This document shows, in pieces, positions 19,146-64,000 of a stretch of 64,000 nucleotides of DNA. The notes below the pieces were generated by a model. The model searched no databases, was not told the origin of the DNA, and saw only the letters and a program-made list of their open reading frames with translations. The DNA is taken from NCBI GenBank assembly GCA_023853785.1, contig JAJIRX010000105.1:42532-106531 (forward strand), written 5' to 3'. Made by a program: the position numbers and the translations under genes. How positions within the stretch are numbered: position 1 is the first letter of the stretch; every line of letters begins with the position of its first letter. The DNA is from Psilocybe azurescens (Eukaryota > Basidiomycota > Agaricomycetes > Agaricales > Agrocybaceae).

Positions 19146-19429
19146 ATATATGTACCGCACGACATTGGGATGATATGACTAACACACAAATCAGTAAGAA
19201 CTACTGGCTATATCAAGACTAATTAGGCGAGGACCTACAGCTATCAAAGACTAAGAGCATACTCGAAGCTCCTATATATGCGGTTTGAGTGTTTAAATTC
19301 AAGCCACGGCAGTGCCCATGGAACGCTTGGCGCACACAATGGGCATGGCGTCGGCATTGATAAAAAAATTGAATACCAATGACCCAAATATGGAGGTCTT
19401 TACACAGCCCCCCATTTTTTGGTCGGACT

Positions 19430-19700
19430 CCGGTCGGACTCCGTCGGACTTTCTATATTCAGAATGACAATTTTTCTGGTCTAGGACTGCTGAAATTTTC
19501 CGGTGAGATTCCGGTGAGATTCCGGTGAAAGTCCGACCGGACTACAAGTCCAACGGACTGTCCGGGCGGACTGTCCACTGAAATGACCGGACAGGACCAA
19601 CGGAAGTCCAATGGAAGTCCATTGGAATCCCACCGGACATGACCATTGGAATTCCAGCGGACAAGTCCAACAGAATTCCAATGGAAGTCCAACGGATGTC
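19430..19700. repeat. TCCA/GGA satellite, left arm of element X
   Basis: Dense repeats of TCCGGT(C/G), TCCAATGGAAGTCCA and CCGGACATGACC-type words, many self-complementary (GGAATTCC, TCCATTGGA). It is inverted relative to 21540-21870. Confidence 0.8.
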
Positions 19701-19734
19701 CTTTTATTATAATTTATACTAGTATAGAAAAAAG

Positions 19735-19815
19735 ACACTAGCGAGAATTGAACTCGGGCATCGGAGAATGCCGGACGCAAGCAGGATAAACCAACTGAGC
19801 CACAAAGGCTTATGA
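19735..19815 (-). other. tRNA-like module of element X (pol III A and B boxes)
   Basis: Read on the minus strand it contains TGGCTCAGTTGG (matches the A-box consensus) and, about 40 bases on, CGAG-TTCAATT-CTCG, a perfect T-arm with the B box GAGTTCAATTC. A hairpin GGCAT...ATGCC lies between them. The acceptor stem does not close, so it is not a working tRNA gene; it resembles the head of a tRNA-derived SINE. The homologous module in element Y is at 57262-57340. Confidence 0.65.
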
Positions 19816-19949
19816 AAATAATAAAATTAGTTAAATACATAGCGATGCCGCCGAAATTCTCGGCACTGCTCGGCACGGGACAAGCAACAACGCGCACGTG
19901 ACATATTGATGCCACGTCGGTCCGTTGTTGATTCCGACCCTAACCCTTT

Positions 19950-21140
19950 TTCCTTCCACCACTACCACCGCCTCGTCGGTCGGAGCCAGGCGAGAGCCAA
20001 CCCGACGCGACAGAGGACGAGAACGACCACGACGGCCACACCGACAAGGACGAGGACGACTGCGACAGCGACAACGAGGACGCGGACGAGGACGCGGACG
20101 AGGACCACGACGAGGACCACGAGGGCGAGGGCGAGGACCGCGAGGGACCGCGAGGACGACGGCTAGGACGACGGCTAGGACCACGACCACGACGGTGAGG
20201 ACCAAGACACCGGCGTGGACCAGGACGACGGCGAGGACGGCGGCGAGAGCAAGGACGACGGCGAGGGCGAGTACGGCGAGAGCAAGGGCGACGGCGAGGG
20301 TGAGTACGGCGGGCGAAGACGAATGCGGCGAGGGCGAGTACAGCGGCGGGGACGAGAACGACGGCGGGGACGAGGACGACAGCGAGGGCGAGTACAGCGG
20401 CGAGGGCGAGTACAACAGCGGGGACGAGGACGACAGCGAGGGCGAGTATGGCGGCGAGGGCGAGTACGGCGGCGAGGGCAGTACGGCGGCGAGGGCGAGT
20501 ACAGCAGCGGGGACGAGGACGACAGCGAGGGCGAGAGACGACAGCGAGGGCGAGTACGGCGGCGAGGGCGAGTACAGCGGCGGGGACGAGAGACGATGGC
20601 GAGGGCGAGTACAGCGGCGAGTGCGAGTACAGCGGCGAGGGGCGAGTACAGCGGCGGGGGACGAGTACAGCGGCGGGGACGAGAACGACGGCGGGGACGA
20701 GGACGACAGCGAGGGCGAGTACAGCAGCGAGGGCGAGTACAGCAGCGAGGGCGAGTACAGCAGCGGGGACGAGGGCGACAGCGAGGGCGAGTACAGCAGC
20801 GAGTACAGCGGCGAGGGCGAGTACAGCAGCGGGGACAAGGACGACAGCGAGGGCGAGGGCGACAGCGAGGGGCGAAGTACGGCCGGCGAGGGAGCAGTAC
20901 AGCAGCGGGGACGAGGACGACAGGACGACCACAACACGCGACGACAGCAGCGACGCGTACCACGACACGTACGGACAACAGCGACACGTACCACGACACG
21001 TATGGACGACACCGACGACAATACCGACGCGTACCACGGCAGGTACGGCCGACGACAACACCCGATGGCGACACCGGCGCATACAACGACGGGTACGGCT
21101 GACCACGACGTCGATAACGCAGACGACGACACCACCAATG
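19950..21140. repeat. GAC/GAG minisatellite core of element X, open in several frames
   Basis: About 1.2 kb made of GGCGAG-TACAGC-GGGGACGAGGACGACAGC-type units of roughly 30-36 bp, with almost no T on the plus strand. Because stops need T (or A-only complements absent here), frames stay open on both strands: 19925-21238 (+, 437 aa), 20215-21102 (+, 295 aa), 19831-21138 (-, 435 aa), 19940-21106 (-, 388 aa). One plus frame reads acidic (GEYSGGDENDGGDEDD), another Arg/Gly-rich, another Ala/Thr/Arg-rich. I do not call a gene; the openness follows from composition. Confidence 0.8.
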
Positions 21141-21346
21141 TACCCTCGCCCCCTTTTTCCGTTCTTTCTTTCTGTTTTTCTTTTTTGTTTCTTTTTATTA
21201 TGTTTTTATTTTATTTTTACCTGTATATAATCATGTAGTATATAGTTTTTAATATATTATATTACATTGTCACATAAATTTAAGCTAAGATTAAAGTATT
21301 CCAGTTGGAATCCAATTGGATTCCATTCCATGTGAATTTAAAGTTG

Positions 21347-21369
21347 GACTTTGTGAAATTCACAAAGTC
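21347..21369. promoter_or_regulatory. Perfect 11-bp-arm palindrome conserved in elements X and Y
   Basis: GACTTTGTGAA-A-TTCACAAAGTC. The same palindrome with a single mismatch is in element Y at 50416-50438. It could be a protein-binding site or a hairpin; its function is unknown. Confidence 0.55.
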
Positions 21370-21539
21370 AGATAATAATGTAGTATATAGTTTACAATAT
21401 ATTATATTACATTGTTACATGAATTAAAGATAAGATTGAAGTATTATTCTAGTGACCTAGCTTCCTTAATATGGCTCCCAAAGCTTCCAAGAACACTGCT
21501 ACTGTCCCTAACTCCCTCCCAAGTCTGCAATTAAACCAG

Positions 21540-21880
21540 CGACAGTCCACTGGACATCCACTGGACATCCACTGGACTCCACTGGACAGAGCACTCTTGG
21601 ATCTGGTCTAATTAAGTGCTGAGAGTCCAGTGGAAGTCCACTGGAAGTCCAACGGAAGTCCAATGGACTGGACAGTCCGGCCAGTCCGCCTGTTTTCTGT
21701 CTTGAAGTGACTTGACCGGACTTTGACCGGAATTTGGCCGGACTCTGACTGGACTGGTACCGAATTTTGTCAAGTCCAATGGAATCCGTTGGACGCCCAA
21801 TGGAATCCGTTGGACGTCCAATGGACTGTCCATTGGAATTGGCTGGGTCCGTGAAAGTCCATTGGAGTCCAACGGAATAT
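21540..21880. repeat. TCCA/GGA satellite, right arm of element X
   Basis: TCCACTGGACATCCACTGGA, TCCAATGGACTGTCCATTGG and GGACTTTGACCGGA-type words. It is preceded at 21300-21345 by CCAGTTGGAATCCAATTGGA-type words that also occur in element Y. Confidence 0.8.
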
Positions 21881-22199
21881 GGGGGCACTGTAAAGTACAC
21901 CAAATATGGACATATTCTGCGAGCTGGGATGAGTCATACTAGGGTCTGGGAAGGTGTCGTGGATGGATGGAAAGGGGAGGGATGGGACATATTCAGATAA
22001 AGTCCATGCTCCATCATTTAATATATGTAGAACTGACACAAACCCACGACCGAAAGCCAACGTCCATCAGTCGTATATAGCAGTCACCCAACCTATTGCG
22101 GCTTCATTGGCTAGATCATTGTCTGCAGAATCCATCGAGTTTACATCACATGATCAGCGTTCATTATGCTTTGGATTTACTACACTCAACTGATCTTTA

Positions 22200-30874: not shown

Positions 30875-33418
30875 ATGGTGTCGGCCATCGCTCATTGTCT
30901 CTCTTCCCTTCTCCCTCGTTCTCTGCTCCTGCTGTCATCACCCGTCGTCACCATCTCATCGTTGCACCGCCGTATCGTTGTAGTCATTGTCGCGTCGCAT
31001 CTCATGCTTGGCCTCCCTTCCTGTTAGGCATTCACCAAAAATTCCCAAGTCAGTCCTCAATATGCCCAAAACGACCGACATCGACATCGACATCGGTTCG
31101 ATAATCGCATTTTCACGACATGGTCTTTTAATGTTAACTTTGCTTCGTCGTTTTCTTTCTTTCCCTTTCCCTTTTCAACTTTATTTTGTTTTGTTTTTTC
31201 CTGGTAGCCTGTTGGTCCTTGTTGTTGGGTGTCTGTTGAAAAGACAAGTCATTGTTATATTCTCGCTCGAGTTTGTGTTTGCCTTAGAATGTCAGTTGCT
31301 TTTATTCAGTTATTAATATTTGCCATTTCTTGGAATAATATATGCCCCCTTGTTTCGCATGTTTGTCTACATCCTCCTTTATCTTTTTAAAACTATATGT
31401 TTTCTGTCCCTTTTCAACTCTCACACTATGTAAATAACAGTTTGAATGAAATTCTGTGATGACTTGAATGTCTCGGCCTACCAGCTGATTTGACTGATGT
31501 ACTTGTGAGAGAAATGATGTGTATTTGGGGTCATTTCGTGTGCAATTTTCGTGGAAGTAAGAACTGCACTCGTGAGAGTCAATGGGAATGGATCCAGGTA
31601 ACACCTCTTGAACTTGTACCACCATCATCTCTCAACACCACCTTGATATATTTCCCATTACATCAACAAAATCTTTGTGACAGACCACAGTGAACTGTGT
31701 GATGATATTGGAATTTTACAGATGTTCAGCATCTCAATGTATGTCCTGTTTTGATATCTGCAGTGTATGATATTGATTTTTGATTGGATTGTAGTGATTG
31801 AAGTGGTTTCTATGATGATGTCTGTGTACATTGTATTTGTCTTGATGGAAATTGATAATGTATGTGAATTCATTGGATATACACAGTGTTACCCATGTTT
31901 AAAAACAAATTAGCAGACCTCCAACATCTTCCATCAGAATTGGCTCAAGAGCAATCAAAATCAGAGGGGATCATCACCTCCCTTTCAGTAAAAATAAACT
32001 AAACCTGTTCCATCTAATCACTTTGTATCAGATTGTTGATACTGCCACCTTTTGGAAAATCACCCAAGACTACCATTGAAACACATACTCTGTCATAGTT
32101 CCTTTGATACATTTCCTGTAAGCCTCATTGACACCATCATAGAGGGAAAATATAAGTTTAAACTTAGTGTCTGTACATTATTTTTGAAAAATTTTTTGTA
32201 CATTTGAATAGACATTGGATAGATATATTGGACCTCCAAAAGCTAAATAATTGGTGGTGTTTTGTTTGAGAAATTAATAGTTCATCCACTGTATAATAGT
32301 TCCTGTGAGCACCTTGCAATCATATGATGTAATGAATATGAATGTAAGAATTCTGACTTTAATAAGGAGCTTTAGTTCTTTCTATTTGTGATATGGATTG
32401 TAAAATAATGTTCTGGGGGTGAGGGGGGTGCAAATTAATGCAAAAGTACTGTGTGTTACACAATGAGTGTGGGGCAATACTACAAGCTAAATGGCTTTGG
32501 AGAGATATCTGAAGCTAGCCATTTTGTCTTCATAGACTCATCAGTAGCTATCATACATACATAAGGAATATTACTATGTACTCCTAAAATAAGCACATGT
32601 TTACTAAGCTAAGCACCTATTCTTAGTAAATTGATTATTGATTGCTAATCCTTTTATTGTTATCCTTGTAATTTTTCTCACGCATGCAGGAATGTCAGAG
32701 GTCTTACTGACTAATTACAATAGAGTTGATCAACTCATTACCAATAACATCATGGGATGGATTAGTGATCAAGTCACTTTAATTATAAATCAGGTGTTAA
32801 AGTTGCTCTGATCTAACAATCTGACTAAAAGATTAGTCATTTCTGAATAATAGCTTACCAACTGAGTCGAGAATAGACTGTAGACTTCACAAAAATTGCA
32901 GTCTATTCATGTGTCTAGTGCTATCTAGTGTACTGGCCTGGGCCAAAGTGTACTCCATGACGAGACTGAGTTACTGGGTTCAAGCCTACTAATCCAGTGG
33001 TGCATCATTTTCAGTAAGATCTGCTCTCATGGACAAGTCTATTTTGACAATCAACTGTCAATGCAAATAGACACATCCTTCCCCTATTAAGGTAATTGTT
33101 AGTATTATCTGTTTGGGTAAGTTCATGTTTGGGTTTGGGTTTGGCTATTACAAATCAAAGTGTGCTTGTGAGTTGATATTCAGTCACTCTATAGCATTTA
33201 AGAATTACATATAGTTTGGGGTTTGGGGTAGCACATTGTGACAAAGTTGCAAGTAATTCTTTCATTGATTATTTGCTTTGGAGCTTCTGCTGGATTCTGG
33301 ATGTTCACAGTCTTCAGACCATTCATGTTGGTGTAGTATTATATTTTGCTATTGCTATTGGTAGTTATCTGTTCAGTAGCTTTGTCTAAGTCAGAGTATT
33401 CTTCAACAACACCTTGAA
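30875..33418. other. AT-rich intergenic region
   Basis: No gene is supported. A short (CGACAT)n tract lies at 31075-31097. A pol III B-box-like GGGTTCAAGCC occurs at about 32978 within a block that resembles a tRNA-like insert (32925-33005), but the A box is poor and no cloverleaf closes. The rest has no recognised structure. Confidence 0.4.
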
Positions 33419-38443: not shown

Positions 38444-38827
38444 TGGATAGTCGCGGCGTGGTTTACTCGAGAGTATCAGTGAAAAGAGCGGAGTTTAAGT
38501 ATCCGCGAATTGTGTTTGCGTGCAACCATCACTGGGGTTATGACGGGCGAGTGAGAGTGAGGTGTCTTTGATCATTAAGTTTAACTAGTGGCCCTATTTT
38601 CAGACATCGATTTAACTCTGTATATCCCCATTTATTCTGATAGTTGCACGATCCTGATATCGGCAGGGAGGACTAGAGTAACTTACCTCAACTAGATAAA
38701 AGATATTTTCCACATCTCTCGACAAGATTCTATCAGATGCGCTGGGATACGTTGCACCTCTTCAATAATTATTCACAATATAGACAGATTTCCTGAAGCG
38801 GGATTGTGAGATGCTCCAACGATAAAG

Positions 38828-39660
38828 GTCACTGGCATTTGATTATAATGTTTTGTTTCGATGTTGATGAACAAGCTATGTATTGCGCTTGAACAGCCAT
38901 TCCAGTTATGGTTCTGAAAGACTCACCGGATGATCAGCCCCATCCACGCTCAGACCTCTACACAGATCCACAGCACTCAAGTAATTATACATTGATCTGC
39001 GTTGCCTCACTGTGCGCGTGCGCGTGCCAGACTGGCGTGTGTCCAGTGAGACCATGAGTAGTTATACCGGACATCAAATCCGGTTTCGTTTGCTGGTTGA
39101 AGGACGCACTCTGGACAGTACTGCATATCTTACCCGATAACCATTTAATTTCAAAGAGAAGGCCTCCCCAAAGCTATCTATGTTTGTCCGCAAGTTCGCA
39201 CGTTATGTGTTCATCACATAGACTGCATTGAGCTCAGGTTACTGGCATTTTATTATAGTGTTTTGTTTCGATGTTGATGAACAAGCTATGTATTGCGCTT
39301 GAACAGCCATTCCAGTTGTGATTCTGAAATACCCACCGGATGATCAGCCCCATCCACGCTCAGACCTCTACACAGATCCACAAGTAATTATACATTGATC
39401 TGCATTGCCTCACGTGCGCATGCGCGTGCTAGACTGACGTGTGTCCAGTTAGACCTTGAAGAGTTATACTGGACATCAGATCCGATTTCATTTGCTGGTA
39501 GAAGAACACACTCTGGACAGTACTGCATATCTTACCCGATAACCATTTACATTCAGAGAGAAGACCTCCCCAAAGCAATTTATGTTTGTACGCAAGTTCG
39601 CACATTTGTTCATCACATAGACTGCATTGAGCTCACACCCTGTCAACTTGATACCGAAGT
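38828..39660 (+). repeat. Local tandem duplication, ~410-bp unit
   Basis: GTTTTGTTTCGATGTTGATG occurs at about 38851 and 39260, and GATCAGCCCCATCCACGCTC at about 38931 and 39342. The counterpart in copy 1 (18640-19100) is single. Confidence 0.85.
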
Positions 39661-50170: not shown

Positions 50171-50189
50171 GCATGCAGTACTTTACCAT

Positions 50190-50510
50190 GCCCCACCCAT
50201 TCCAAATGGAATGCATGGAATGCAACTTGATTCCATGATTCAGTTGGATTCCAACTCAATTCCATGGAATCAGTCGCAATCCAGTTGGAATCCAGACCAA
50301 TTCTGATTGGATTCCAATTAATGGTTTCAAGTGGAATGGAATGGGTCTGGAATCATGGAATGAACCAATTCCAATTGGAATCCAAGTTCATTCCAGATTA
50401 GTTCATTAAAGAGAGGACTTAGTGAAATTCACAAAGTCCAACTTTAATTCCACATAGAATGGAATGGAATGGAATCCAGTTGGATTCCAACTGGAATGTA
50501 TTACTTATGG
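50190..50510. repeat. TCCA/TGGAAT satellite arm of element Y (left)
   Basis: Repeated ATTCCAATTGGAATCCA and GGAATGGAATGGAATCCAGT words, highly self-complementary. Confidence 0.8.
50416..50438. promoter_or_regulatory. Conserved palindrome, element Y copy
   Basis: GACTTAGTGAA-A-TTCACAAAGTC, one mismatch from the perfect palindrome in element X (21347-21369). Confidence 0.5.
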
Positions 50511-50604
50511 TAGATTCACATAATAGTATAATATAATATATTGAAAACTATGTATTACATTATTATCTACAATGTTATGTACAAAAAAAAAAATAGGGTG
50601 AGGG

Positions 50605-51078
50605 TGTTACAACTTCAAGCTTATATTCACGTGCGTGGATAAAGCCGACAGTCAAGTAGTCAAGAACAGCAAGTTCCAAGCAGTGTCAAGTAAGAGGAGG
50701 CTAGATTCTCAAGAACTAGCTAAAGAATACAATGGATCCTTCCTAGTATAAATACTATGAACTGTACAGCAAGTTGAAACGAGTTTGAATGTTCATCAGC
50801 AGATGTATATAAGAATAGAGGAAACAGATCAATTGTTCATCGAAAGATGTATCATAAAAGATGGAAGTGAAAGGAAACAGATCAAACATTCATCAAAAGA
50901 TGTATCATAAAAGATAGAAGTGAAAGTCCATCAGAGATATGATGGAGTTTCGTAGAATGATAGAAAACAAAGTTCATCAGAGCAGATGATGCTGTATCAA
51001 TGATGTGAAGGATGACAAAGAAAAGGAAAAGAAAAGAAAAGAAAAGAGAAAGGGAAAAGAAAAAGACTTGTCATAACA
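50605..51078 (-). repeat. 3' LTR of the gypsy element
   Basis: 474 bp, TGTTAC...TCATAACA. It contains an internal direct repeat (AAAGATGTATCATAAAAGAT twice) and an (AAAAG)n purine run. The putative polypurine tract lies next to it at about 51079-51100 on the minus strand, but is not a clean one. Confidence 0.95.
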
Positions 51079-51775
51079 TTACCCCGTACTACACTCCTTA
51101 TGCCTCAGAAGGAGTGAAGTCTATTACTTGTACGAGTTCATTAGTTTCCGTATGGTTCACCTGTGGTGTTTGCGATTCCAGCGTCACGTCGGGCGAAGAG
51201 GTCTAGGGCTTCAAATGTTGAAAGTGTTTGAGCGTAACGAGGCATGGCAGGTCGTTTGCCTCGTAGGACGTGGAGTTGGCAGGCGTAGAAGAGGGAAGAA
51301 GTGGCAGGGGTATCGATGAAAGACATGTTGTGTTGCTTTGGTAGTTGGGGTATGGTTCAGAGATAGAACGACTTGGCCTTTTTATACTTTGGCAATTAAT
51401 GGAAGGCGTTGATAGAGCTCTTGTTTGACCCTATTTAGTTTGAGGCGTAAAGATCTGGCTTGGTGGTGGGCCAGTTTAGCAGCAGCCAGGCAATGGTTCT
51501 GGTTTGCCGTCTCCTTCTGATTGATCGTCTTGTTGTATTTGGTGAGAATTTCTCTTCGCAGCATCTCGAGTTCTTCTACGGTTTGTTTGGTTAAAGGGGT
51601 ATCGAAGATGGGAGTTTCGAGTTGGTTCGTTTCAGAGTTTCGAGTGAAGGAAGAGGCGTCGTCGGAGAAAGTGAGGCATCAGGATGGTAGGGATGATCAA
51701 AGTTTGTGTAGTTGGTGGTCTTTTTACAGCTTGTGATGTGTTCGGTAAGTCTGTAAGATTTCATTACCGGTTTCT

Positions 51776-53207
51776 TCAAAGACCGGCCGGTTCCCACGTT
51801 GCTTCGGTGATCGGATAGTCCTTCCATTTGACGTAGTATTGGTATTCTCTTCCTCTTTTCCGATGTTTGTGAATTGTCTCTATTTCCCAATGTTCTTCTT
51901 CGTTTAATATCTCTGGTGGCGGTCGAATGAAATTGGGTCCATGTGTTTCGGTCTCGTGGTATGGATTAAGAAGTGTCGCATGGAATACATCGTGAATGAG
52001 CCATCCTTTGGGGAGTTCCAGTCGATAAGTTAGGGGTCCTAAGACTTCTTTGATCTTGAAGGGTCCTTCTCGTTTTGGTGCCATTTTCTTGTGATAATTT
52101 GTCTGTAAATTTGTCGCTTTTAGCCAAACTCTTTGTCCTTGGATGAACGGTGTGAAGTTCGAGTTTTTCCTTTCAGCCATCCTTGTCTGGGCTAGTTCGT
52201 GGGCTGCTAGGGCTTCTTCTCGATCCTTTTGAAGATACTTCAGTCTTTCTTCTACTGAAGGAAACTTGGTGTGTTCGAATGCGGTGGGAATTCGCGATGG
52301 GGAGTATCCGAGAATTAATTCGAATGGTGTTCTCTGTCTGTCCGCATGTCTTCGGTTATTGTGAGTGAATTCGAGGGTCCCAAGTCATTCATGCCAGTCT
52401 TCTGGGTGAGACGAGCAGTATATGGATAGATAGGCTTCAATCTCTTGGTTATATCGTTCTGTTGTTCCGTCCGTTTGAGGGTGATAAGCAGTTGAAAATT
52501 TCGATTTTACTCCAAGGAGTTTCATTAGCTCTTTGAATGATTCAGCGGCAAATCTGGGGTCTCAATCTGATGTGAGGCTGTCTGGTAGTCCAAACCTTTG
52601 TAGAGATTGTCCAGTAAGAGTTTGCCAGTCTTTTCGGCATCCAGTCCTTTCATTCGGCATGGAATAAGGATAAGTCCTTTTGTGTTCCCGTGATCGGTGA
52701 TGCTTAGAATCACATCAAATTCAACTTCTCCTTGCTTGTCCAGGATCGGTGGAAGGTCTGTAAGGAAGTCCATAGCACTGTCTGCAAAGGGTCGGGCTGA
52801 CTTTGGTCCAGGTATCGGTATGAATGATGGGTTAGAGGGATGTCGATTTATTTTGAACTGTTGGCAGGCGGCACATCCTTTTACGTATTGCTTGACAAAT
52901 GATCATAATCCTGGCCACCAGTAATGTTGTTTTACTGAATTGAATGTTTCTAATTCTCCAGGGTGTCCGGCTGAGATAGGGTCGTGATATGATTTGACTA
53001 TGTCTTTCCGTAGGGTTTGATCTTTTGGAATGTAGGCTCGTCCTTGGTAGTATAAGATAGTTTTGCCGTTCACGTTCTCTGTTTTCCATTCTCTGAGGTC
53101 GTGTCGTGCATTTAGTGGTCCTCCTTCTAATAGGGTTTTCATTGCTTCTGCTGCGTTGTGGTCCAGTTCGTTCGCATTGGCAATTCTTTCCTGTAACTCG
53201 GCGTCGA
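51776..53207 (-). pseudogene. Gypsy integrase with C-terminal chromodomain, interrupted
   Basis: On the minus strand: the zinc-binding HHCC region (SAGHPGE ... QHYWWPGL, then SFVKQYVKGCAACQQF at about 52870-52915), the catalytic core beginning MDFLTDLPP (about 52755-52780) with TKGLILIPC, and a C-terminal part with GQRVWLKATNLQTN, FKIKEVLGPLTYRL and IHDVFHATLLNPY (51970-52120). It ends in a chromodomain EEEHWEIETIHKHR and QYYVKWKDYPITEATWEP (51780-51890). Stops: TGA after WWPGL, TGA within the SD-DPRF second-Asp motif (CGA to TGA, about 52555), and TGA after WHE (TGG to TGA, about 52390). The chromodomain is typical of chromoviruses that target heterochromatin. Confidence 0.88.
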
Positions 53208-54706
53208 TTAAGTCGATGAAAAGCTTTTCTGGAAGTAAGGTGATGTTTTCATTGTCATGGTCTTCTTCTGGGGTGAAATCGGGCGTCTTGAAAGGGTATC
53301 GGATTGAATCATTTTGTTTCCAGGTAGATGTACCAACTTCAGATTGAATTCTGAGACATACAGAGACCAGCGTGCCTGTCGTCGGTTTAGATTTTGGGCC
53401 GATCTGAAATATGTCAAATTCTTGTGATCTGAATATACCGTAGTCGTGTGTTCTGATCCTTGGATGTAGTGTCTCCATTCCTGTAATGATCTGATTATTC
53501 CCAGTAATTCCCTGTCGTAGATTTCGTAGTTTCTTTCGGTTGGAGAGAACGTTCTTGATATAAATGCGCATGGGTGTCTTTCACCATTTCCGTCCAGTTG
53601 AGTAAGGACTGCTCCGGAGGCATATTTTGAAGCGTCAGATTCGATTTGAAATGGTTTGGCAGGGTCGGGCATCAAGAGTACCGGTTCTTCCGTGAATCGT
53701 TTCTTCAGTTCATCAAAGGCAGCTTGAGTTGTGTCATTCCATAGAAATCCTTTGTCTTTCTTCAGGAGTTCATTTAGAGGTCAAGCTACTTCAGAGAATT
53801 TCTGGATGAATTTTTGGTAGAAGTTCCCAAAGCCCAGGAACGATCGGACTTGTTTGAGAGTAGTAGGTGCTGGCCAGTCTTGAATTCCTTTGAGTTTTGT
53901 TGGATCCATAGAGATTTTTCCTGCTTCAACAATCATTCCGAGATATTCCACTTTTCCTTGAGCAAAAGAGCACTTTTCCGGTTTGAGATAGAGATTGTTT
54001 TCTCGGAGTCGTTGTAGAACCATTTTGGTGTATTTTTCCAATTCCCCTCGATCTTTCGCAAAGATTAGAATGTTGTCCATATAGATGATTATGAAGTATT
54101 GTGATATCATGTCTTGAAGATTGAGTCCATCATGGATTGGAAGGTTGCTGGGGAATTGCACATGCCAAAGAACATTACAGTTGGTTCGAAAAGTCCTCGG
54201 TTGGTTTTGAATGCTGCTTTCCATTGATCACCTTCTTTTATCCTGATGTTGTTGTAGCCCCATCGGATATCTAGTTTGGTGAAGAATTTTGCACCTTTCA
54301 ATTTGTCCATAAGTTCCGTAATCCGTGGTAGTGGGTAAGTGTTCTTGATCGTCCAGTCGTTCAGATACCTGTAGTCTTGACAAGGTCTAAGCTTTCCATC
54401 TTTCTTTGATACGAAGAAGAAGGGGAGATGCCATAGGTGATTCCGAGGGTCGAATGTATCCTTTGTCCAATTGTTCCTTTGTCCAGGTGTTTGTTCTGCC
54501 GGTGTGATATTGTATGCCTTGAATTTCTTTGGTATGAATCCTTCTTTTAACTCAATTTTATGGTCCCATGGTCTTGGTTCTGGGAATCGGTCTGCTGCTT
54601 GTTTATCGAAAAGGTCTTTCTTGGAGAGGTCTTGTCGGTTTCTCTGGTTCATATTGTTGGGCCAGCATCTGTGAGGTCGTGATTTTGGTGTTAAGCCAAG
54701 TTTCTT
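53208..54706 (-). pseudogene. Gypsy reverse transcriptase and RNase H, active site altered
   Basis: RT blocks: FVSKKDGKLRPCQDYRYLND (about 54355-54415), [40 protein letters not shown] (motif A Asp present), [19 protein letters not shown]. After a frame change, [12 protein letters not shown] follows (about 54057-54090): the catalytic YxDD reads YMDN. Then [19 protein letters not shown] and [20 protein letters not shown], a TGA (CGA to TGA, about 53780), and the RNase H domain with [36 protein letters not shown] and [10 protein letters not shown] (53208-53675). Several frameshifts are present near 54220 and 54640. Confidence 0.88.
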
Positions 54707-56074
54707 TTATTTCGTCTTCGTTTGCATCCCGATATATCGGATGACTAACGATTCAAATTCCTCCAATGGGTGGGTAGTCTTGATTGTTGGTGTTTGTTCG
54801 TCCGTTTCTTCTTCAATGGTGGTTTGATTTATCGTAGGCCCTTGACGTGGTTTCCAAGTTATCTGTCCGTTCTGCCAGTTGATTCCTGGATTCTTTTCCT
54901 GTAGCCAAGGGAATCCTAAAATAATTTTCTGTTTTCCTAGCCCAGAGACCAGTAATTGTTCCCGATGGTTCCGGTTTCCAACCTTTAGGTCCAGGTCTAC
55001 AAATGACAAGATGGTTCCTTTCTTGTTGGTCCTTTCTGTGGACAATCTCTGGATAGATGTCCTCGTTGTTTGCACCTGAAACAGGCGCCTTTCCTGATTA
55101 ATTCGGCTCGTTCTTCGGCTGTCATGGCGCTTACGTCCATCCTGTTTGGGTCGTAGTTCCTGTTGTTTCTTGGGAAGTTGTTCCATCGTGGTGCCCTCCT
55201 ACGTTCTTCTGGTTCTTCTCTAAAGACCTTGGCCAGTCTATAGTTGGTGTCAAATGTTGTTGCTTTTTTTGTACCAGCCTTGGATCGTCCTTGGAAGGTC
55301 TTCAGAGTACAGGATCCTGTCGGCAAGCTGAGGTGTGATGCATTTTTGGAATAATCCAATGAGGTGGGCGTGGTCTGATTCCGTTTCTGTTCCTAGATTG
55401 GCTTGTCCTACCAACAATTTGAACTTGTTGATGATGTCTTCCACTCTTTTGTTGGGTTTTTGCCTAAGTCGTTTTATGTCGTTCATGGCTGATCTGGTTT
55501 CGTCCACCGGGGTGAATGTGTCATGGAATTTTTCGAAGAATGTGCTGAGGGTGTCCCATTCGATGGTTTGATTGGGACTGATTCCTCTCATCCTTGAGGT
55601 TAAGTACTGTTCTTTCCATAGTTTCGCTCCTCCTTCCATGCAGAATGATAAGATGAAGGCGATTTTCTTCTTGTCGGTGTTATAGATGTCTTCGTTTATG
55701 TCCATGTAAAGATAGCAGTCTTGTATAAAAGACTTGGACTTTGTTCGGTCTCCATCGAATACAACGGGTTTGTTGATCGAGATTTCTTTCTTTCTGTTTG
55801 TTTCGACCATGTCTGTGTCTTGTTGTTCTTCTTGGTCTATCGCCAGGGTTGATAATAAGCTGTATAGCGAGTTTGATAGGTCTTTGTTGCCTAGGTTGAT
55901 ATCTTCAGAGCTTTGTCTGGACAGGTTTGGTGTCTGCCAATTTTGTGTCGGGGTTCCTTCTTCTGAGCTGTCGGTAGCGGGAATTCCGCTTTTGGTGGTG
56001 CCGTGTTTCGTTTCGGGTTTCAGAGGTCTCGTCTGCTGGGGAGCGGGCGAGATTTGTAGATAAGCTAGTTCTTT
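54707..56074 (-). pseudogene. Gypsy gag (zinc knuckle) and truncated protease region
   Basis: A gag frame (55250-56149, opening inside the LTR) contains PVVFDGDRTKSKSFIQDCYL and WDTLSTFFEKFHDTFTPVDE. After a frameshift in the A-run near 55265 it continues FDTNYRLAKVFREEPEERR to the CCHC zinc knuckle CFRCKQRGHLSRDCP (about 55038-55085). The next recognisable block is LVSGLGKQKIILGFPWLQEK (54885-54945), the second half of a retroviral-type aspartic protease. The expected D(S/T)G active-site segment between them is absent, so there is an internal deletion with a frame change. Confidence 0.8.
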
Positions 56075-56548
56075 TGTTACGACTTCAAGCTTATATTCAC
56101 GTGCATGGATAAAGCCGACAGTCAAGTAGTCAAGAACAGCAAGTTCCAAGCAGTGTCAAGTAAGAGGAGGTTAGATTCTCAAGAACTAGCTAAAGAATAC
56201 AATGGATCCTTCCTAGTATAAATACTATGAACTGTACAGCAAGTTGAAACGAGTTTGAATGTTCATCAGCAGATGTATATAAGAATAGATGAAACAGATC
56301 AATTGTTCATCGAAAGATGTATCATAAAAGATGGAAGTGAAAGGAAACAGATCAAACATTCATCAAAAGATGTATCATAAAAGATGGAAGTGAAAGTCCA
56401 TCAGAGATATGATGGAGTTTCGTAGAATGATAGAAAACAAAGTTCATCAGAGCAGATGATGCTGTATCAATGATGTGAAGGATGACAAAGAAAAGGAAAA
56501 GAAAAGAAAAGAAAAGAGAAAGGGAAAAGAAAAAGACTTGTCATAACA
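56075..56548 (-). repeat. 5' LTR of the gypsy element
   Basis: 474 bp. It differs from the other LTR at five sites (among them ACGACTTC versus ACAACTTC and GTGCATGG versus GTGCGTGG). The internal side begins AAAGAACTAGCTTATC on the coding strand; I could not assign the primer-binding site. Confidence 0.95.
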
Positions 56549-57130
56549 GAGGGGATGTCATAGCCTTGCTGTACACATTGTGGTGGCCGTCATACATGTC
56601 CGCCATGGCCATTGGTGTCTGTCATGTCTATCATACGCATCGTCATGGCCTGTGTTGTCTTGTGGTGTGCGTCATCCATCTGGTCATCTGTACCTGTCGT
56701 ACCCTTTGTTGTTGTTGCTGCAGCTGCAGCTGCCATCTGTGTTGTCTTCACCCTTGTTATTGCTGCAGCCACAGCTGCTGTTCATGTCATTGTTGTCATC
56801 ATTGCAGCCACCATCCTCACCATCCCTCGTACCTGTCGCTGTCATCCTTGTCACCGTGGCAGTCACTGTCACTATCTTTGTCCTCATCGCTGCCACTGTC
56901 CTTGTCCTTGTCACAGCCACCCTTGCCCTTGCCCTTGCTCTTTCCCTCATCAGGGTCATCATCACTGTTGTCCTCACCTATGTTGTTGTCCAGGTCCTTG
57001 TTGTCACGGTCACTGTCATTGTTGTCCGGGTCCTCATTGTTGCTGTCATCCTTGTCCTTGTTGGCGTGGCTGTCATGGTCATTGTTGTCCTCCATTGCAT
57101 CAAGTTGGCTGTTGCCTGGCTCTGACCAAT
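56549..57130. repeat. GTC/CTTGTC minisatellite core of element Y
   Basis: Complement of GAC/GAG-type units as in element X, but with CpG largely replaced by TpG/CpA. Three plus frames (216, 181, 204 aa) and short minus frames (acidic DNNDSDRDNKDLDNN, Thr/Arg-rich) are open, again from composition. No gene is called. Confidence 0.75.
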
Positions 57131-57261
57131 GAGGTGGCGGTAGTAGTAGTTGGAAGAAAAGGTGGTGTCCAATGTGTCACATGTGTTGTTGTCAATTGGC
57201 ACGTGCTGAGCAATGCCAAGAAATAGGCAGTGTTGGTATATATTTAACTAATTTTTTAATG

Positions 57262-57340
57262 TTGTCAAAGCCTGTATAGCTTAGTTGGTTTATTGCCCAC
57301 ATTCAGTGTGCTCCAATTGCACAAGTTCAATTCTCATGAA
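57262..57340 (+). other. tRNA-like module of element Y
   Basis: A box TAGCTTAGTTGG and B box AAGTTCAATTC with the same spacing and the same downstream CACTAGTATAAA-TATAATAAAA tail as the module of element X. The acceptor stem is not closed. Confidence 0.65.
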
Positions 57341-57399
57341 TGGATTTTATTTTTTTACACTAGTATAAAATATAATAAAATATAATAAAAATATTGGAA

Positions 57400-57600
57400 C
57401 ACTATTCCACTCGGATTCCACCCTATGCCATTGGAATGAACCTGTGTTTGACCAAACTCAATGCAATATATGGTATTCCAGTTGGATTCCAGTTGGATTC
57501 CATATGGATGCCAGCCATTCCATTGAATGAAACTGGAATATTCCATTTGGAATGGCCTATTTTCTGGAATCCAGTTGGAATCCATTCAGAATCCATGTTC
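57400..57600. repeat. TCCA/TGGAAT satellite arm of element Y (right)
   Basis: CCAGTTGGATTCCAGTTGGA and GGAATCCAGTTGGAATCC-type words, inverted relative to 50190-50510. Confidence 0.8.
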
Positions 57601-57689
57601 ATTTTCCCATACAAAATACCAGGGTGATATAACATGATATTCAGACCAGAATCTGATGGAATAGGTGGGGAAGGTAAAGACCTCATTTA

Positions 57690-58263
57690 GTTCCTTAAAT
57701 AATATAGATGCATGGACAAAATTTGATAGGTCTGAATCCACAACTAATATATTAAAGCTTTTGCAGTCTGTTTATAAGACAAAAGAATCTTGTCCTGATT
57801 ACATATGTATTGACAAAGGATGTCAAGTGTTGCAAACAGCTGTTACCAATGGAAGGTGGGATGCTATGTGGAAAAAAACATCAAGATTTATTGTGGACAC
57901 TTACCATTATATTAATCACCAAGCCAATAATTATCTTTGTTGAAAGTACTGCAATCCTTCTCCAGGTGATGGTTCAGCTCTAAGTCTTGTAATTATTGCA
58001 TATGATGATAATGGTAATGCTTATGCCCAGAAAGCCTTTAATACACAAGTGTGTGAACAATTAAATGCATGGCTGGGTGGTTTTGAATCTATACTTAAAC
58101 ATATGACACCTAGCAATTTCAACTGGTTTCTACACACAGTGCTATTTTACCACACAAAATATGACATTGCAAAGCAGAAAAAAAGGCAGAGTCTTCAGAT
58201 AGTGATGATGAAAATGAAGAATTAGGATTGGATGAAGAGACTAGTGATTCTGACTCAGGCTAA
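57690..58263 (+). pseudogene. CxC-type (KDZ-associated) protein, C-terminal part
   Basis: The frame gives LLQSVYKTKESCPDYICIDK, GCQVLQTAVTNGRWD, RFIVDTYHYINHQ, then NYLC followed by TGA (about 57941) in place of the expected Arg (CGA to TGA). It continues in frame KYCNPSPGDGSALSLVIIAY, KAFNTQVCEQLNAWLGGFES, MTPSNFNWFLHTVLFYHTKY and an acidic tail. The CPDYxCIDKxC and YHYINH segments are typical of the CxC5/CxC6 proteins that accompany KDZ transposons in basidiomycetes. The N-terminal part is cut off by the end of element Y. The tail lies in the inverted repeat and recurs at 63755-64000. Confidence 0.75.
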
Positions 58264-58709
58264 ATTGAATACAAGTGTGTAAAAAAACAAGTTAATTCAC
58301 ATAGTAGATTATATAAGCAATGTACAGTAGATGTATGATACAAGGTAGATTACATAATCAGTGTATAGTAGGTGTATGATACAGGGTAGATTATATAAGC
58401 AGTGTACAGTAGGTGTATGATAGTAGTGATAACTGTGTAAATCTATTTTTTATTCAGCCCAAAGGTGTGGGAAATTGTTTTTACTCAGCTTCAAGCTGTG
58501 GGAATTCCACTCTATTACTGTATTGGCTATAAACAACACTATTCCCCTTCATTCCCCCTCCATTCCCCTCCATTCCCTCTCCAATTTCTTCATTCCCTCT
58601 TCATTCCACTCTATTCCCACTCTATTCTCTCTATTCTCTCTATTCCCTTCACTCCCTTTCTCAATCCCTCCAGTCCTAGGGAATATGTGGGGAGTGAGAA
58701 GTACTGTCA
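58017..58709 (+). repeat. Left arm of a large inverted repeat
   Basis: Reverse complement of 63275-64000 (which runs off the window). It includes the CxC-protein tail, three ~41-bp repeats (GTAGATTA-ATAAGC-GTGTACAGTAG-GTATGATACA, 58303-58425) and an ATTCCC(T/C) satellite (58535-58680). The arms enclose 4.57 kb. Confidence 0.9.
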
Positions 58710-60150
58710 TACTGGCTGAACTTTTAGATTAGTGTAGATTAGTACTATGTTAGCGGTATCATGCTTAAATCCATTGTTATTTTTTGCTGTCTCTCCCACC
58801 TTGCCAAGATGTGCCTTAAAAATCAAGATAAGACAGATTGAAAATTGGAAATGTATTTCAATGACGCTCTAGATTAATTGAAATTTTTTTACTGATGTGG
58901 CCTACGATTAATCGATAAGATGTATTCTATCATTTGGCTTGGAAGGTGTGTGAGATGTGATATTATTTGACTCAAGTTGCAAACTTATGAAGGTTTGTAG
59001 TGGTGTGTAGCTACAATCTGGTGTTCAGAAAGTGCTAAAGTGTATGAATTCATGTACATATATTACATGCAGTACAGTACATTCAATCTCCTACTGAAGT
59101 TGACAACATCTCAGCTTCTTCAAGTGCTTCAAGTTCTGCAATAAATTTTTAATATTCTGCTTCCTCTTTTTCACATTGATGTCTAGTCTTTTCCTCTGAC
59201 TATAGATATAATTAAATGGCAGAAGGATACAATGAAGTAAACAGCTTCATACCAATATTTCCAAGTTTTGTCGTTGATCTTGTCTCTATTTTTCTCTTGA
59301 TATCATGCTTGGGCTTGGGCCTGTTAATGTTTTCTCTTTCTCAAGCCCAAGGGCTTTGGGTGTGCTTTGCAGCCTAATATATAGTAAGATAAGCCACAAT
59401 AAGCTGAATGTGAATGTACTGTTTGAGACATTTGTGCTTGTGATCTTTCTCTTGCTCATGTTCTTGATGCTTGAGCACACATTGTCGGCCAATGGATTAT
59501 ATAGAGGAGTACCAAATCACTTACCATTTGTAATGATTCTTTTTCCTTCTGAGTCTTAAAGCTCACTTTTCTGGATCCTCTTCTACAGGTTTAGTGGCAC
59601 GTGGCATGTGGAAAGAGTGAAAGATCAAGAACTGGAATTTTTGGGAAGCACCAAGTCATAAATTTGTTGTAAATTCTAAAAATAGATTATGTCCTAATAA
59701 AGAACGAGGTCAGTTTCAGCCAAGTTTGAACTTTTGAGAGCGCTCTAAGTAGAGACCTAAATGCTGTTTAGACTCAATATAAAGGTGTAATAAGACTAAT
59801 ATGTAGTTATTAAATCAAATGACAGTCTTTTTTTGGGGAAAAAACAGTGTCAGATTTCACCAGAATCAGGTTGAAGAGAAGAGAGAGTTCAGTTGTAACA
59901 TAGCTAAACATATTCCAACTGTTTTGAGAATTACATTTTGGGAAACATTCTAGCACCCCTGAAAATAAAGATCTGTGTACAAAAATTTCAAGGATTCTGA
60001 ATATGTCTTTTGTTTAAATAGAGGCACCAAAAATTGTATGCAAATGTCAAATTAGTGCTTCAAGATTTTGGCCAGAATCACCACTCTCAAATACAAAACA
60101 ACAAATTCAGACTGCACACAGGTGTTAAGAGCCAAGGAATTATATATTGC
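58710..60150. other. AT-rich region inside the inverted repeat
   Basis: An ORF pair at 59286-59559 has a hydrophobic FVLVIFLLLMFLM stretch but no family. No RNA gene or repeat is recognised. Confidence 0.4.
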
Positions 60151-60820
60151 AGATACAGTACATATATATAGGGTAGCCTAGCTATTTGGAAATATTGACC
60201 CCTAAGAATGATGCAATGTCTTGCTCCCACTTTGAAGCCTCCTGCTGGTTATGTTGGTGATGCTCATCCAGGGAGAGTTGCAAAGTGTTCAAGTTGTTCA
60301 CATACCTCTCAACATTTTTTGCAGTTGCCACCTCCAACAGAAGTACCGACACCCCTAGCTGCCAGATCTGGGCAGCTCTCATCACAGTGGCAGAATGAGG
60401 AACACCCGAGGACATGATATGTGTCAACAACAGCGCAGACAATGTGGCCGACTCAAATTTCTTGCCTGCTACCTTCCCTCATTGAATTCAAGTGTGAATG
60501 TATGAGCGTTGAGCTAGATGCAAGGATCTGTTCATCTCCATTTCCCTCCTGTTCATTGTCATCAGCAAAGTCCATGAGGAGTGGTGTGTGCTCCCTGTTG
60601 CGGCCAGTGTCAAGCTCAAGGATGAATGTAATATGTGTCAACAACAGCACAGATGATGTGACTGACTTGATGAACTGGCCTGCATAGGAGTAAGAGAAAT
60701 GCAAATGGCATGGAACATATAGTAGCAGAACACACACAGTGAGTTTATTGGACATGAAATGAACACAGACACTCATTGTCCTCCAATTGTCAGCAACAAA
60801 GCCTGACACCAATTGCAATG
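60150..60820 (-). pseudogene. Fragment resembling the transporter linker at 4.2-4.6 kb
   Basis: The minus-strand frame TPLLMDFADDNEQ ... ILASSSTLIHSH matches the 4.2-4.4 kb sequence that reads TPLLVYFATCNDDDW ... HASSSTLVHSQSH. VAGKKFESATLSALLLTHIM matches VAGQFTKSPMSSA...RIMFSG. An AGQFIKSVTSSVLLLTHI block is a second, tandem copy of that segment about 210 bp away. So this is a fragment of an auxin-efflux-carrier-like gene, or both loci share another unrecognised sequence. No transmembrane part is present. Confidence 0.4.
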
Positions 60821-61555
60821 CACACCATGAACCAAGTGCTTGTCAAAAAGAGGTAGAGGCTTCAAGAGGATGGGAACTCAGTGGATGCTTTAGAGTCCTG
60901 GTGAGTACTGTTGTACTGAGAAATTAGATGGGACACTTATGAATGGTGTATGAAATGGATATCTGTCAGTGATTATCTCCTGGCAGTGGGAGGTGCAAAG
61001 TGTTGTATGATACACTTTGACAGGTAAGATAGTGGCAGGATGAATAGATGGGGGAGCAGTTGGTGGGCTAGCTGGAATACCAGTGTGCTGATAGTGGATC
61101 ACTGCAGGCCATGAGATGGGATGGGAATACCACAGGTGAGCATGCAGTCCATTTGATGAGAGTAACATTGGCACTTACTTCATTGAGCTCGTTGTTAGCT
61201 TGTGGACAGAGCACAATATAGGGGAGGGAGAGCACATCAAAGCCTCACATTCTTGTTGTCGTTTGAGCCCCATGCAAGGTCAGGCCACAATGAAGTTCAT
61301 GTATGCATACAGCTGTGAGTAAAAACATCTAAATGTCTGGGACGTACCTCTCACATCAGCTCATTTGCATCTCCTGTGCTGTTGTGGTGTTGAAGAGCAT
61401 ATGGATCAGCCCTACATCGCCATGTGAATGAGCTTAGTGAGGAAAATGGGAAATATCTTTGGGGGCATTGTTGAGGTTGAAATCAAATTGAAATAATGTC
61501 ATGTCCAATTTGTGCACTCATGTGATATGTGACCCATAGCTCAACAGACAGTCTC
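60821..61555. other. No gene recognised; one 94-aa minus ORF
   Basis: The ORF at 60890-61174 (minus) is open but has no recognised domain. The rest is non-coding as far as I can see. Confidence 0.35.
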
Positions 61556-61579
61556 AGTCAAGTCATTATCTATTATCTA

Positions 61580-63245
61580 TGGCATTCTCCCAGAAACGCC
61601 AGTGGGTTGGCTCTCTTTTAAAGCTGGCACATATCACAACCCAATCCCTGTATTCAATGACTTCAATATTATTCATCATAGTGAAGGTGCTATACGCAAC
61701 ATCGGTGGATCAGCACAGTCTACATGCATTCACCTGTCCCCCAAACACATTGCAGGAGCTTGGGAACAGGTTACATTCTGGTCCCTACCTGATGACAAAA
61801 ATTTTGCCCTTGAACCAGATGAGGGATGGTACAAAAAACACTTGAGGCTGAGGTTATGGAGGATCTACAACCGCCGCCAACTGCAAAACTGAAGAAGAAA
61901 GAAAGTGTGGTTGCAGTAAGGTTCCTTTCTATGTTTTCATTTAACAACTGCTAGCTAATCATATCTATAGCAGCATCCACATGTAGTATGGAAGACAACA
62001 TATCACCAAGAATACCTCAACAAAATGTTATGCTGGGCAGGCAGAGGGGACTTTTGTCAAGCCAATCACTGTCCCAATTGCATATCTCATTCAATAGAAA
62101 CACCTGGCTGTGCAGAGTACCAGTGCAGGGAGTGCATCTCCCTGATCTTACTTGCTTGACATGTTGCATAAAAGGCATAGATTGACTCCATTTCATCATG
62201 TTGAGGTACGCTGTTATGATTCTTACTGTTGTACCCTAGCTAATCTTCTGACAAGAAATGGACAGGCATGCAGTTTGTTGAGGTGTCCCTCAAGATGTTG
62301 GGACTTTGGATACAACTCAACCACACAGGAGGATACTGCAAGAACCCAATTGCATCCCATTCAAGCATGCTGATCCTTCATACCAACGGCATACATTCTG
62401 TCAACCTATTCTATTGTGGATGTTCACACAAAATCCCCACCATCTTCAACTCCTTTGTTGAAGAATTTATCTGGCCTCCCAGATGTCTGTGCAAACATGT
62501 GCAACTTTTGAGCTTCTCCATCACCTCCACAAACTTGCCTTGACCACAAAAGCATTGACATACAACTTTTATGAGTGTTTAGAAAAGTCAACAACAAATC
62601 TAAAAATCCACCCACCCAAATCACAATACCGTGCGTTATTTTGTATGATCCTACAGTGGAGACATCTACAAATGCTAAAGTGGGTAGAGCAAGGACACAA
62701 TGTGACTGGGGTTGTGGGTACTACCCTGGTGGATTAGCCATCAAATGTCCTTCCTGCCCCCACCCTGGAATTAACCTACCGGTTGATTGGGAAACAGTTT
62801 CAAAAGCAATGAAGTAGGTTTATTTTGCAATCTTGAAGCCTGTCAGCTGACATTTGTTCAGATTTCTCTACACAATGATTATCTGTATGGATGCCAACTT
62901 TCAGCTGAAAAACCAGCTGGTATCCAATTACTCTCAGGACCCTGGAATTGGAATAGGGCTGGTGTACATGGTGCCTCAAGAGCCATATGAGACTTATGTC
63001 TTGAGTTGAGCTGATGACAAAGATGTAAGCCTAATATCTCTACTACTTCAACACCTTTCTGACATTCCCCCAGATCAGCACCTATGTTGGATTCCAGGCC
63101 CTTGCAAAGGCAAACACTAAGTTTTCAGTCGGTTTAAAGTACACTGGTGTTGGCACTGTGGTATGCAGACATTCAGAAATGGTCATGCCCATAGAGGTAG
63201 GGAATCTGCAAAAGGAGAGCAGTGAGTTCAGTATGTTTTTCTGAA
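61580..63245 (+). pseudogene. KDZ transposase with CxC2 domain, truncated and interrupted
   Basis: The N-terminal part has GTYHNPIPVFNDF and FALEPDEGWY (61618-61833), then a frame shift to LEAEVMEDLQPPPTAKLKKK (61837-61895). An intron (about 61917-61975) leads into HPHVVWKTTYHQEYLNKMLC with GRGDFCQANHCPNC and CAEYQCREC, the CxC2 cysteine clusters. Then come LKMLGLWIQLNHTGGYC and HTNGIHSVNLFYCGC, then a degraded stretch. GGLAIKCPSCPHPGINLP (62728-62782), ICMDANFQLKNQLVSNYSQD (the DANF transposase motif, about 62880-62940), MVPQEPYETYVLS and a TGA (CGA to TGA) follow. After an intron, ISTYVGFQALAKAN and RHSEMVMPIEVGNLQK are readable to about 63225. The C-terminal half is absent: the inverted-repeat arm begins at 63275. 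Confidence 0.8.
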
Positions 63246-63274
63246 TTGCCTGAAACTGGCCTTACATTAAAGGT

Positions 63275-64000
63275 ACAGTACTTCTCACTCCCCACATATT
63301 CCCTAGGACTGGAGGGATTGAGAAAGGGAGTGAAGGGAATAGAGAGAATAGAGGGAATAGAAAGGGAATAGAGAGGATTGAAGAGGGAATGACAGAATTG
63401 GAGAGGGAATAGAGGGGAATAGAGGGGAATGAAGGGGAATAGAGTTATTTATAGCCAATACAGTAGTAAAGTGGAATTCCCACAGCTTGAAGCTGAGTAA
63501 AACAATTTCCCACACCTTTGGGCTGAATAAAAAAATAGATTTACACAGTTATCACTACTATCATACACCTACTATACACTGCTTATATGATCTATCTTAT
63601 ATCATACACCTACTGTACACTGCTTATATAATCTACCCTGTATCATACACCTATATATTGCTTATGTAATCTACCTTGTATCATACACCTACTGTACATT
63701 GCTTATATAATCTACTATGTGAATTAACTTGTTTTTTTACACACTTGTATTCAATTTAGCCTGAGTCAGAATCACTGGTCTCCACTTCACTAGAATCACT
63801 AGTCTTTTCATCCAATCCTAATTCTTCATTTTCATCATCACTATCTGAAGACTCTGCCTTTTTTCTGCTTTGCAATGATATATTTTGTGTGGTAAAATAG
63901 CATTATGTGTAGAAACCAGTTGAAATTGCTAGGTGTCATATATTTAAATATAGATTCAAAACCACCCAGCCATGCATTTAATTGTTCACACACTTGTGTT
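63275..64000 (-). repeat. Right arm of the inverted repeat, runs off the window
   Basis: Mirror of 58017-58709 with the same ATTCCC satellite (63300-63440) and ~41-bp repeats (63560-63715). Confidence 0.9.
63755..64000 (-). pseudogene. Second CxC-type protein C-terminus, partial at window edge
   Basis: The minus-strand sequence parallels 58030-58263: AFxT-type start, QLNAWLGGFES, MTPSNFNWFLH and an acidic SSDSDDENEELGLDEKTS-like tail. A 9-15-bp duplication in the tail distinguishes it from the left copy. It continues beyond the window, so whether it is intact cannot be judged. Confidence 0.6.

Follow-up and report, generated by a model that had tools for sequence, protein, structure and literature searches.

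What kind of element is X, and what moves it? X is a 2.5-kb unit in a 64,000-nucleotide stretch of the Psilocybe azurescens genome (assembly GCA_023853785.1, contig JAJIRX010000105.1, positions 42,532 to 106,531; this whole stretch is called the window, and its numbering is used throughout). It combines inverted ends and repeat-rich arms with a tRNA-type promoter and a minisatellite. Non-autonomous elements with terminal inverted repeats (TIRs) are a known kind, and a conserved tRNA-type promoter such as the one in X is unusual for this class. Very probably, X is moved by larger transposons of the same genome, which form a poorly understood group. More precisely, we assign a probability of about 0.86 to the reading that X is a non-autonomous DNA transposon and that the DDE transposase of larger relatives with the same ends, a protein with CxC5 and CxC6 domains, moves it by cut-and-paste.

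Ends, duplications, and genomic copies of X

X measures 2,508 bp (19393-21900, + strand), an extent supported by its genome copies, its ends, and its target-site duplication. The latter is an 8-bp direct repeat of the flank, CAAATATG, located at 19385-19392 on the left and at 21901-21908 on the right. The original prediction of an element with inverted ends and direct flanks is thereby borne out, with the borders shifted slightly from 19395-21901. The termini read GAGGTCTTTACA...TGTAAAGTACAC, where the left end begins with GAGGTCTTTACACAGCCCCCC and the right end closes with ...GGGGGCACTGTAAAGTACAC.

When the host assembly (70.4 Mb in 937 contigs) was searched with X, 40 of 800 candidates were scored and all 40 (X included) matched, 19 of them aligning end to end in one piece. 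The end core CTTTACANNGCCCCC occurs 350 times in the genome (180 forward and 170 reverse), compared to no occurrence of the reversed pattern used as control. Many copies thus exist, and the refuting case of only two copies genome-wide does not apply. A fetched sample contained 40 distinct elements with paired ends and lengths of 2.1-9.0 kb, comprising the first listed by contig order and the best X matches. In 39 of them the outer ends are GAGGT on one side and GTGTA (twice ATGTA) on the other, the exception being L010 with two left-type ends. Because the elements were chosen by the core CTTTACANNGCCCCC, only these outer five bases are an independent test of end constancy. Perfect duplications of 8 bp flank 23 of the 40 elements, while 9 bp and 7 bp were each found twice. 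The remaining 13 have no perfect duplication of 4-11 bp, including L029, whose right flank ends at a contig border.

Among 1,560 mismatched flank pairs, just three agree at 8 bp. One of these is the pair L012/L029, which represents one insertion site on two contigs with 198 bp of identical flank, possibly dikaryon alleles or a duplication. The two elements themselves are 98.6% identical. The other two matches both concern L006 and L007, inverted copies of X on contig C884 that lie 71 kb apart and have exchanged their duplications (ATAAAGTG and CATTTATT), as is expected if recombination between both copies inverted the stretch. The two copies thus apparently border a ~71-kb inversion, although a misassembly would look alike.

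The copies are also very similar to each other. Over positions 1801-2130 of X, 17 copies with lengths of 2,313-2,664 bp share a mean identity of 99.6% (minimum 97.9%), and the spread of X appears to be recent. When 19 elements are aligned, the mean majority fraction in 50-bp windows drops to 0.62-0.9 across much of the minisatellite and amounts to 0.96-1.0 in most windows outside it. The X family is a real mobile family with variable minisatellite cores. In X, this variable part is a purine-rich GAC/GAG minisatellite core (20013-20952, +, boundaries chosen by us) with 38.8 copies of an 18-bp period at 20226-20919, and the purine fraction of its + strand reaches 0.77 per 100 bp, in agreement with the strand asymmetry noted earlier. 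All six frames of the minisatellite are long-open because of the repeat, and a reading of this part as a gene is not claimed.

Coding relatives and the CxC5/CxC6 gene

X has no transposase gene of its own, and the genome contains larger relatives whose matching ends enclose a transposase-like gene, as had been anticipated. Five such elements (L011, L012, L029, L030, and L031; family F1) are 7.7-8.0 kb long and carry a CxC5/CxC6 gene; perfect 8-bp duplications flank L012 and L030. The F1 arms match positions 1-309 and 2129-2508 of X at 84-87% in the four aligned relatives. The left arm of X (19393-19702, +) consists of the terminal repeat GAGGTCTTTACACAGCCCCCC and subterminal TCCRNYGGA motifs and is 85-87% identical to L011, L012, L030, and L031, while the right arm (21521-21900, +), composed of subterminal repeats and a terminal repeat (reverse complement GTGTACTTTACAGTGCCCCC), is 84-87% identical to its coding relatives. 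The palindromic 9-bp motif TCCRNYGGA occurs 22 times in the two arms of X, often spaced 10-12 bp in both, and not once in the middle (500 shuffles: mean 0.06, maximum 2). Counts in the arms of L012 and L030 are 26 and 27, again with none mid-element. The TCCA/TGGA motifs of the proposed inverted satellite arms are thus present, but these arms are subterminal repeats common to the coding relatives.

X and F1 also share an 81-bp stretch (21446-21526, +) with 93% identity, which is a remnant of the gene start of the coding relatives with the ATG at 21471 (MAPKASKNTATVPNS). After this start codon, X jumps to the right arm at a short overlap of up to 6 bp, which reads as a deletion junction. The elements L009 and L010 (8-9 kb) were considered as autonomous elements and rejected, as their frames look like retrotransposon pieces by eye.

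Pieces of the F1 gene match CxC5 (PF18718, E=1.8e-27, L011) and CxC6 (PF18721, E=3.4e-13, L012), and both cysteine-cluster domains score above the cut-offs. For the CxC5 exon there are 95 scored genome matches, eight of which have an open frame and agree with the exon at 95-100% along most of its extent. An AlphaFold model of a CxC5/CxC6 homologue, built on a 95-sequence alignment, is good and predicts an integrase-like RNase-H fold with a conserved D-D-E. A first model from 17 sequences was poor (predicted template modelling score of 0.44), and the Foldseek list derived from it is meaningless and was set aside. The protein is widespread in mushrooms: one search returned 391 matching proteins, and all organism-named relatives of CxC5 are from mushrooms (Phlegmacium, Laccaria, Amanita, Infundibulicybe, Pluteus, and others). 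Existing annotations, where they give a name at all, go no further than "associated with KDZ" or hypothetical, and Pfam likewise labels CxC5/CxC6 only as associated with KDZ transposases.

Moreover, F1 belongs to a wider clan whose families have GAGGTCTTTAC/GTACTTTAC-like ends (also rendered as GAGGTCTTTAC/GTGTACTTTAC-like) in common and differ in their subterminal repeats. Clan members include a GAGGTCTTTACTGTCCCC family, a GAGGTCTTTACCCTCACCC family, and a second element in the window (50178-57684, minus strand) with the ends GAGGTCTTTACCTTCCCC / GTACTTTACCATGCCCC and without a matching target duplication. This last element had been taken for a second copy of X and instead belongs to a diverged family of the clan. 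The GAGGTCTTTACCCTCACCC family has two coding copies, L077 and L078, flanked by the 8-bp duplications CTATAACC and CATCACCC, respectively; CxC5 and CxC6 were identified in L077 by Pfam, and the gene of L078 was assigned by a CxC5 match and shared motifs. The full-length coding elements of the clan span 6.4-8.0 kb.

A duplication of fixed length, inverted constant ends, and relatives in which matching ends enclose a gene for a predicted DDE transposase are together the features of a TIR transposon. Based on the predicted fold with its D-D-E, the shared gene, the similar ends, and the 8-bp duplications in a second family, the CxC5/CxC6 proteins probably serve as transposases for a TIR transposon group of their own. 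If so, the annotations mentioned above would gain a function.

Proposed origin and mobility

X looks like an internal-deletion derivative that kept the gene start, beside an interior that is absent from the F1 relatives. In the proposed scenario, a coding relative would have lost nearly its whole gene by internal deletion, retaining both arms and the first codons, and the product would have a different interior composed of an RNA polymerase III (pol III) module, a spacer, and the minisatellite, the latter serving as variable filler. The larger relatives would supply the CxC5/CxC6 DDE transposase, which, if active, may bind the repeated TCCRNYGGA motifs of the arms and cut at GAGGT/GTGTA, and the insertion would yield the 8-bp duplication. 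The enzyme would thus move X in trans in the same cut-and-paste manner as its own element, and the pol III module would not be required in cis for this movement.

The RNA polymerase III module

The interior of X contains a type-2 pol III promoter module (19728-19802, minus strand) that reads toward the left end. Judged by the familiar consensus sequences, it comprises an A box (TGGCTCAGTTGG, 19791-19802), a B box (AGTTCAATTC, 19745-19754), and a T-run (19728-19733) 11 bp past the B box. The boxes and the T-run of the module originally described as tRNA-like are therefore present, but no tRNA was called by ARAGORN at default settings, and covariance-model searches with Rfam found no cloverleaf match in X (E≤1), in nine other loci (E≤5), or in the window (gathering score). 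A promoter and not a tRNA would thus have been kept. The Rfam scan of X at E≤1 returned eight weak matches, six of which are microRNA hairpins on the palindromic arms. A "tRNA-Ala" that ARAGORN reports in X with -ps50 was not used, as eight other stretches each yield 3-6 tRNAs at this threshold.

Within the clan, the module is of old standing. An initial A-box pattern missed X and caught only L077 and L078; with the widened pattern of A box, B box, and T-run, the module was found in 28 of 43 elements (the 40 sampled ones, L077, L078, and the second element of the window, where it lies at 57277-57348, +), compared to one match in 20 rounds of dimer shuffling (3.4 Mb). In 27 of these 28 cases, it lies on the minus strand close to the left end. 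Several diverged families have it at a distance of some 330-410 bp from that end, and the coding elements L077 and L078 carry it at the matching place. Across the genome, the exact A/B pair pattern occurs at 131 places (reversed control: none). Distances were determined for 82 of these modules, on contigs up to C553, relative to left ends from lists of up to 100 entries each, including 100 for GAGGTCTTTACC: 57 have a listed left end on the same strand 208-504 bp outside (median 351) and none has a listed one on the opposite strand, a result that was the same with only 39 of the GAGGTCTTTACC entries. For the other 25 modules no end is listed, but five of them (on C154, C214, C268, C307, and C384) bear a third left-end type in the fetched loci. 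A further set of A box, B box, and T-run was observed in the window at 32926-33011 (+), away from any exact clan end.

Whether the module still has a function was assessed with 15 diverged modules that are 60-88% identical to each other. The mean pairwise identity is 0.877 in the boxes, 0.674 in the rest, and 0.626 between the boxes, and the box footprint ranks first among 220 shifts. Fourteen A boxes fit TRGCNNAGYNGG, ten B boxes fit RGTTCRANYC, and nine modules fit both patterns. We consider it slightly more probable than the opposite that the module is a working promoter or TFIIIC site. A broader proposal can be held only tentatively, at a little under even odds: that a distinct, undescribed fungal cut-and-paste group has the CxC5/CxC6 proteins as its transposases and that, in addition, the type-2 pol III unit of the clan, fixed near one end, is kept by selection across families because it makes a small RNA or acts as a TFIIIC barrier. 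If a conserved pol III promoter does reside inside a DNA transposon, it would offer the element a new route to meet the transcription and chromatin of the host.

The most probable alternative, though somewhat short of an even chance, is that the module is only a passenger. It would then descend from an ancient tRNA fragment, and its boxes would seem conserved through shared ancestry and because they contain no CpG, a mutation hot spot. Several observations speak for this and against a function. A 24-bp AT-rich stretch that adjoins the module outside the boxes is equally conserved (0.875), the module is absent from the five F1 coding copies, and no Rfam tRNA is matched. Furthermore, five elements (L018, L022, L024, L025, and L026) combine, by eye, a left arm of the L012 type with an interior of the X type and have no module, from which it follows that arms and interiors have recombined; an exchange of arms between X-type elements and the coding family seems to have taken place. 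Perfect duplications of 8 bp flank L018 and L022, L024 has one of 7 bp, and L026 one of 9 bp, while L025 has none, so that insertion does not require the module in cis. On the other hand, the lead of the boxes persists in columns that are never CpG (0.904 versus 0.728, Mann-Whitney p=0.0007) and in a purine/pyrimidine code (0.988 versus 0.83, rank 3 of 220), which, together with the footprint, the pattern fits, and the modules in L077 and L078, argues against a mere relic.

It is unlikely, yet worth considering, that the module is no RNA gene but a TFIIIC boundary, i.e., a heterochromatin barrier or portable insulator that keeps the left side of the element open. The fixed place and orientation near one end as well as the drift between the kept boxes would fit such a role, and fission yeast provides precedents for TFIIIC sites and a pol III-dependent barrier, according to the available text of the reports (PMC4502379, PMC2040200). 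However, a T-run of at least four within 60 nt past the B box is found in all ten modules with a fitting B box, which would be needless for a pure barrier, even if AT-rich flanks make such runs easy.

Comparison with known systems

X resembles tRNA-derived short interspersed nuclear elements (SINEs) in its pol III promoter, as far as the sequence alone tells. SINEs have a type-2 promoter with A and B box, no terminal inverted repeats, and a variable duplication, whereas X has terminal inverted repeats, a mostly 8-bp duplication, and a module reading toward a DNA-transposon end, and no SINE body or tail was seen. Duplications of Mutator-like elements measure ~9-11 bp, compared to 8 bp in 23, 9 bp in two, and 10 or 11 bp in none of the 40 elements here. 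Miniature inverted-repeat transposable elements are under ~0.8 kb, well below the length of the 17 X copies. No hAT family was among the Pfam matches of the partner-gene pieces or homologues. Like maize Ds, which according to the consulted part of the source (PMC3260210) retains the ends and some subterminal repeats of an autonomous element that moves it, X has lost the coding region; it differs in having the pol III module and the minisatellite, which are absent from the F1 coding copies.

The closest likeness by description is an insert in MSH4 of Pleurotus ostreatus, for which the available text (PMC7641404) reports 6,792 bp, several copies, and a 739-aa CxC5/CxC6 open reading frame, compared to 6.4-8.0 kb for the coding elements here. 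Its authors tied it to Copia retrotransposons, and their main text uses neither "target site" nor "inverted repeat". If the clan reading is true, this insert, which made a commercial oyster mushroom sporeless, could be read as a simple transposition.

KDZ elements are similar in their fungal hosts, their cysteine-cluster domain, and the 8-bp duplications of Zisupton, Dileera, and Cryptococcus KDZ1, as far as the accessible portions of two reports go (PMC12730594, PMC12810828). According to the same portions, they differ in having CxC1 (Cryptococcus) or CxC2 (Pleurotus) instead of CxC5/CxC6 and, in Cryptococcus KDZ1-3, TIRs of 139-241 bp instead of short imperfect terminal repeats, while Kyakuja families that bear TET lack TIRs, end in CA..TG, and show duplications of 7 bp. 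The clan protein also lacks the KDZ catalytic domain PF18758, which was not matched in four homologues and three L077 pieces at E≤1 or in eight L011/L012 pieces at E≤0.01.

It is improbable that another transposase, KDZ proper or another enzyme of the genome, moves X with the CxC5/CxC6 gene as a passenger. The genome does hold 170 PF18758 matches, Pfam ranks CxC5/CxC6 merely as KDZ-associated, and the CxC5/CxC6 frames of Pleurotus lie near Copia and not beside KDZ genes in the text at hand (PMC7641404); but among the matches listed, no PF18758 place falls inside L011, L012, L029-L031, L077, or L078, and the CxC5/CxC6 homologue has the predicted integrase-like fold with D-D-E. The idea that recombination, and not transposition, spread X as a foldback or satellite-derived repeat can practically be dismissed, as exact common termini and 8-bp duplications at unrelated sites contradict what the satellite-rich arms and the apparent rearrangement at L006/L007 might suggest.

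Repbase aside, no named family with the ends of X was found, and literature searches on non-autonomous KDZ/Zisupton elements listed none like X. Among the papers listed, with subscription papers also set aside, none was found to describe such ends, TIR transposons with CxC5/CxC6, or a DNA transposon in which a pol III promoter is conserved. The available text of a paper on Laccaria transposable elements contains neither "tRNA" nor "TSD".

Other features of X and the window

Two further segments of the X interior are a conserved spacer (19863-20012, +, boundaries chosen by us), which is common to X-type elements and more diverged in other families, and an AT-rich stretch (21227-21445, +) that holds a pair of 74-bp direct repeats (21227-21300 and 21372-21445, 89% identity). 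The perfect palindrome noted in X is present in this stretch (20 bp, 21306-21325); another of 12 bp lies at 19715-19726.

Inside the second clan element of the window, there is a probable long terminal repeat retrotransposon (50605-56548) that spans 5.9 kb and has two 474-bp direct repeats with 98.9% identity. An inverted-repeat structure at 58237-63782, probably a further transposon, has ~510-bp ends of 87% identity, 41-bp tandem repeats, and ATTCCCTCTCC/GAGGGAATAG satellites. Finally, long tandem arrays occupy 1587-2813 and 38826-39635, with 73/103/277-bp units, a 165-bp unit, and a 402-bp unit present twice.
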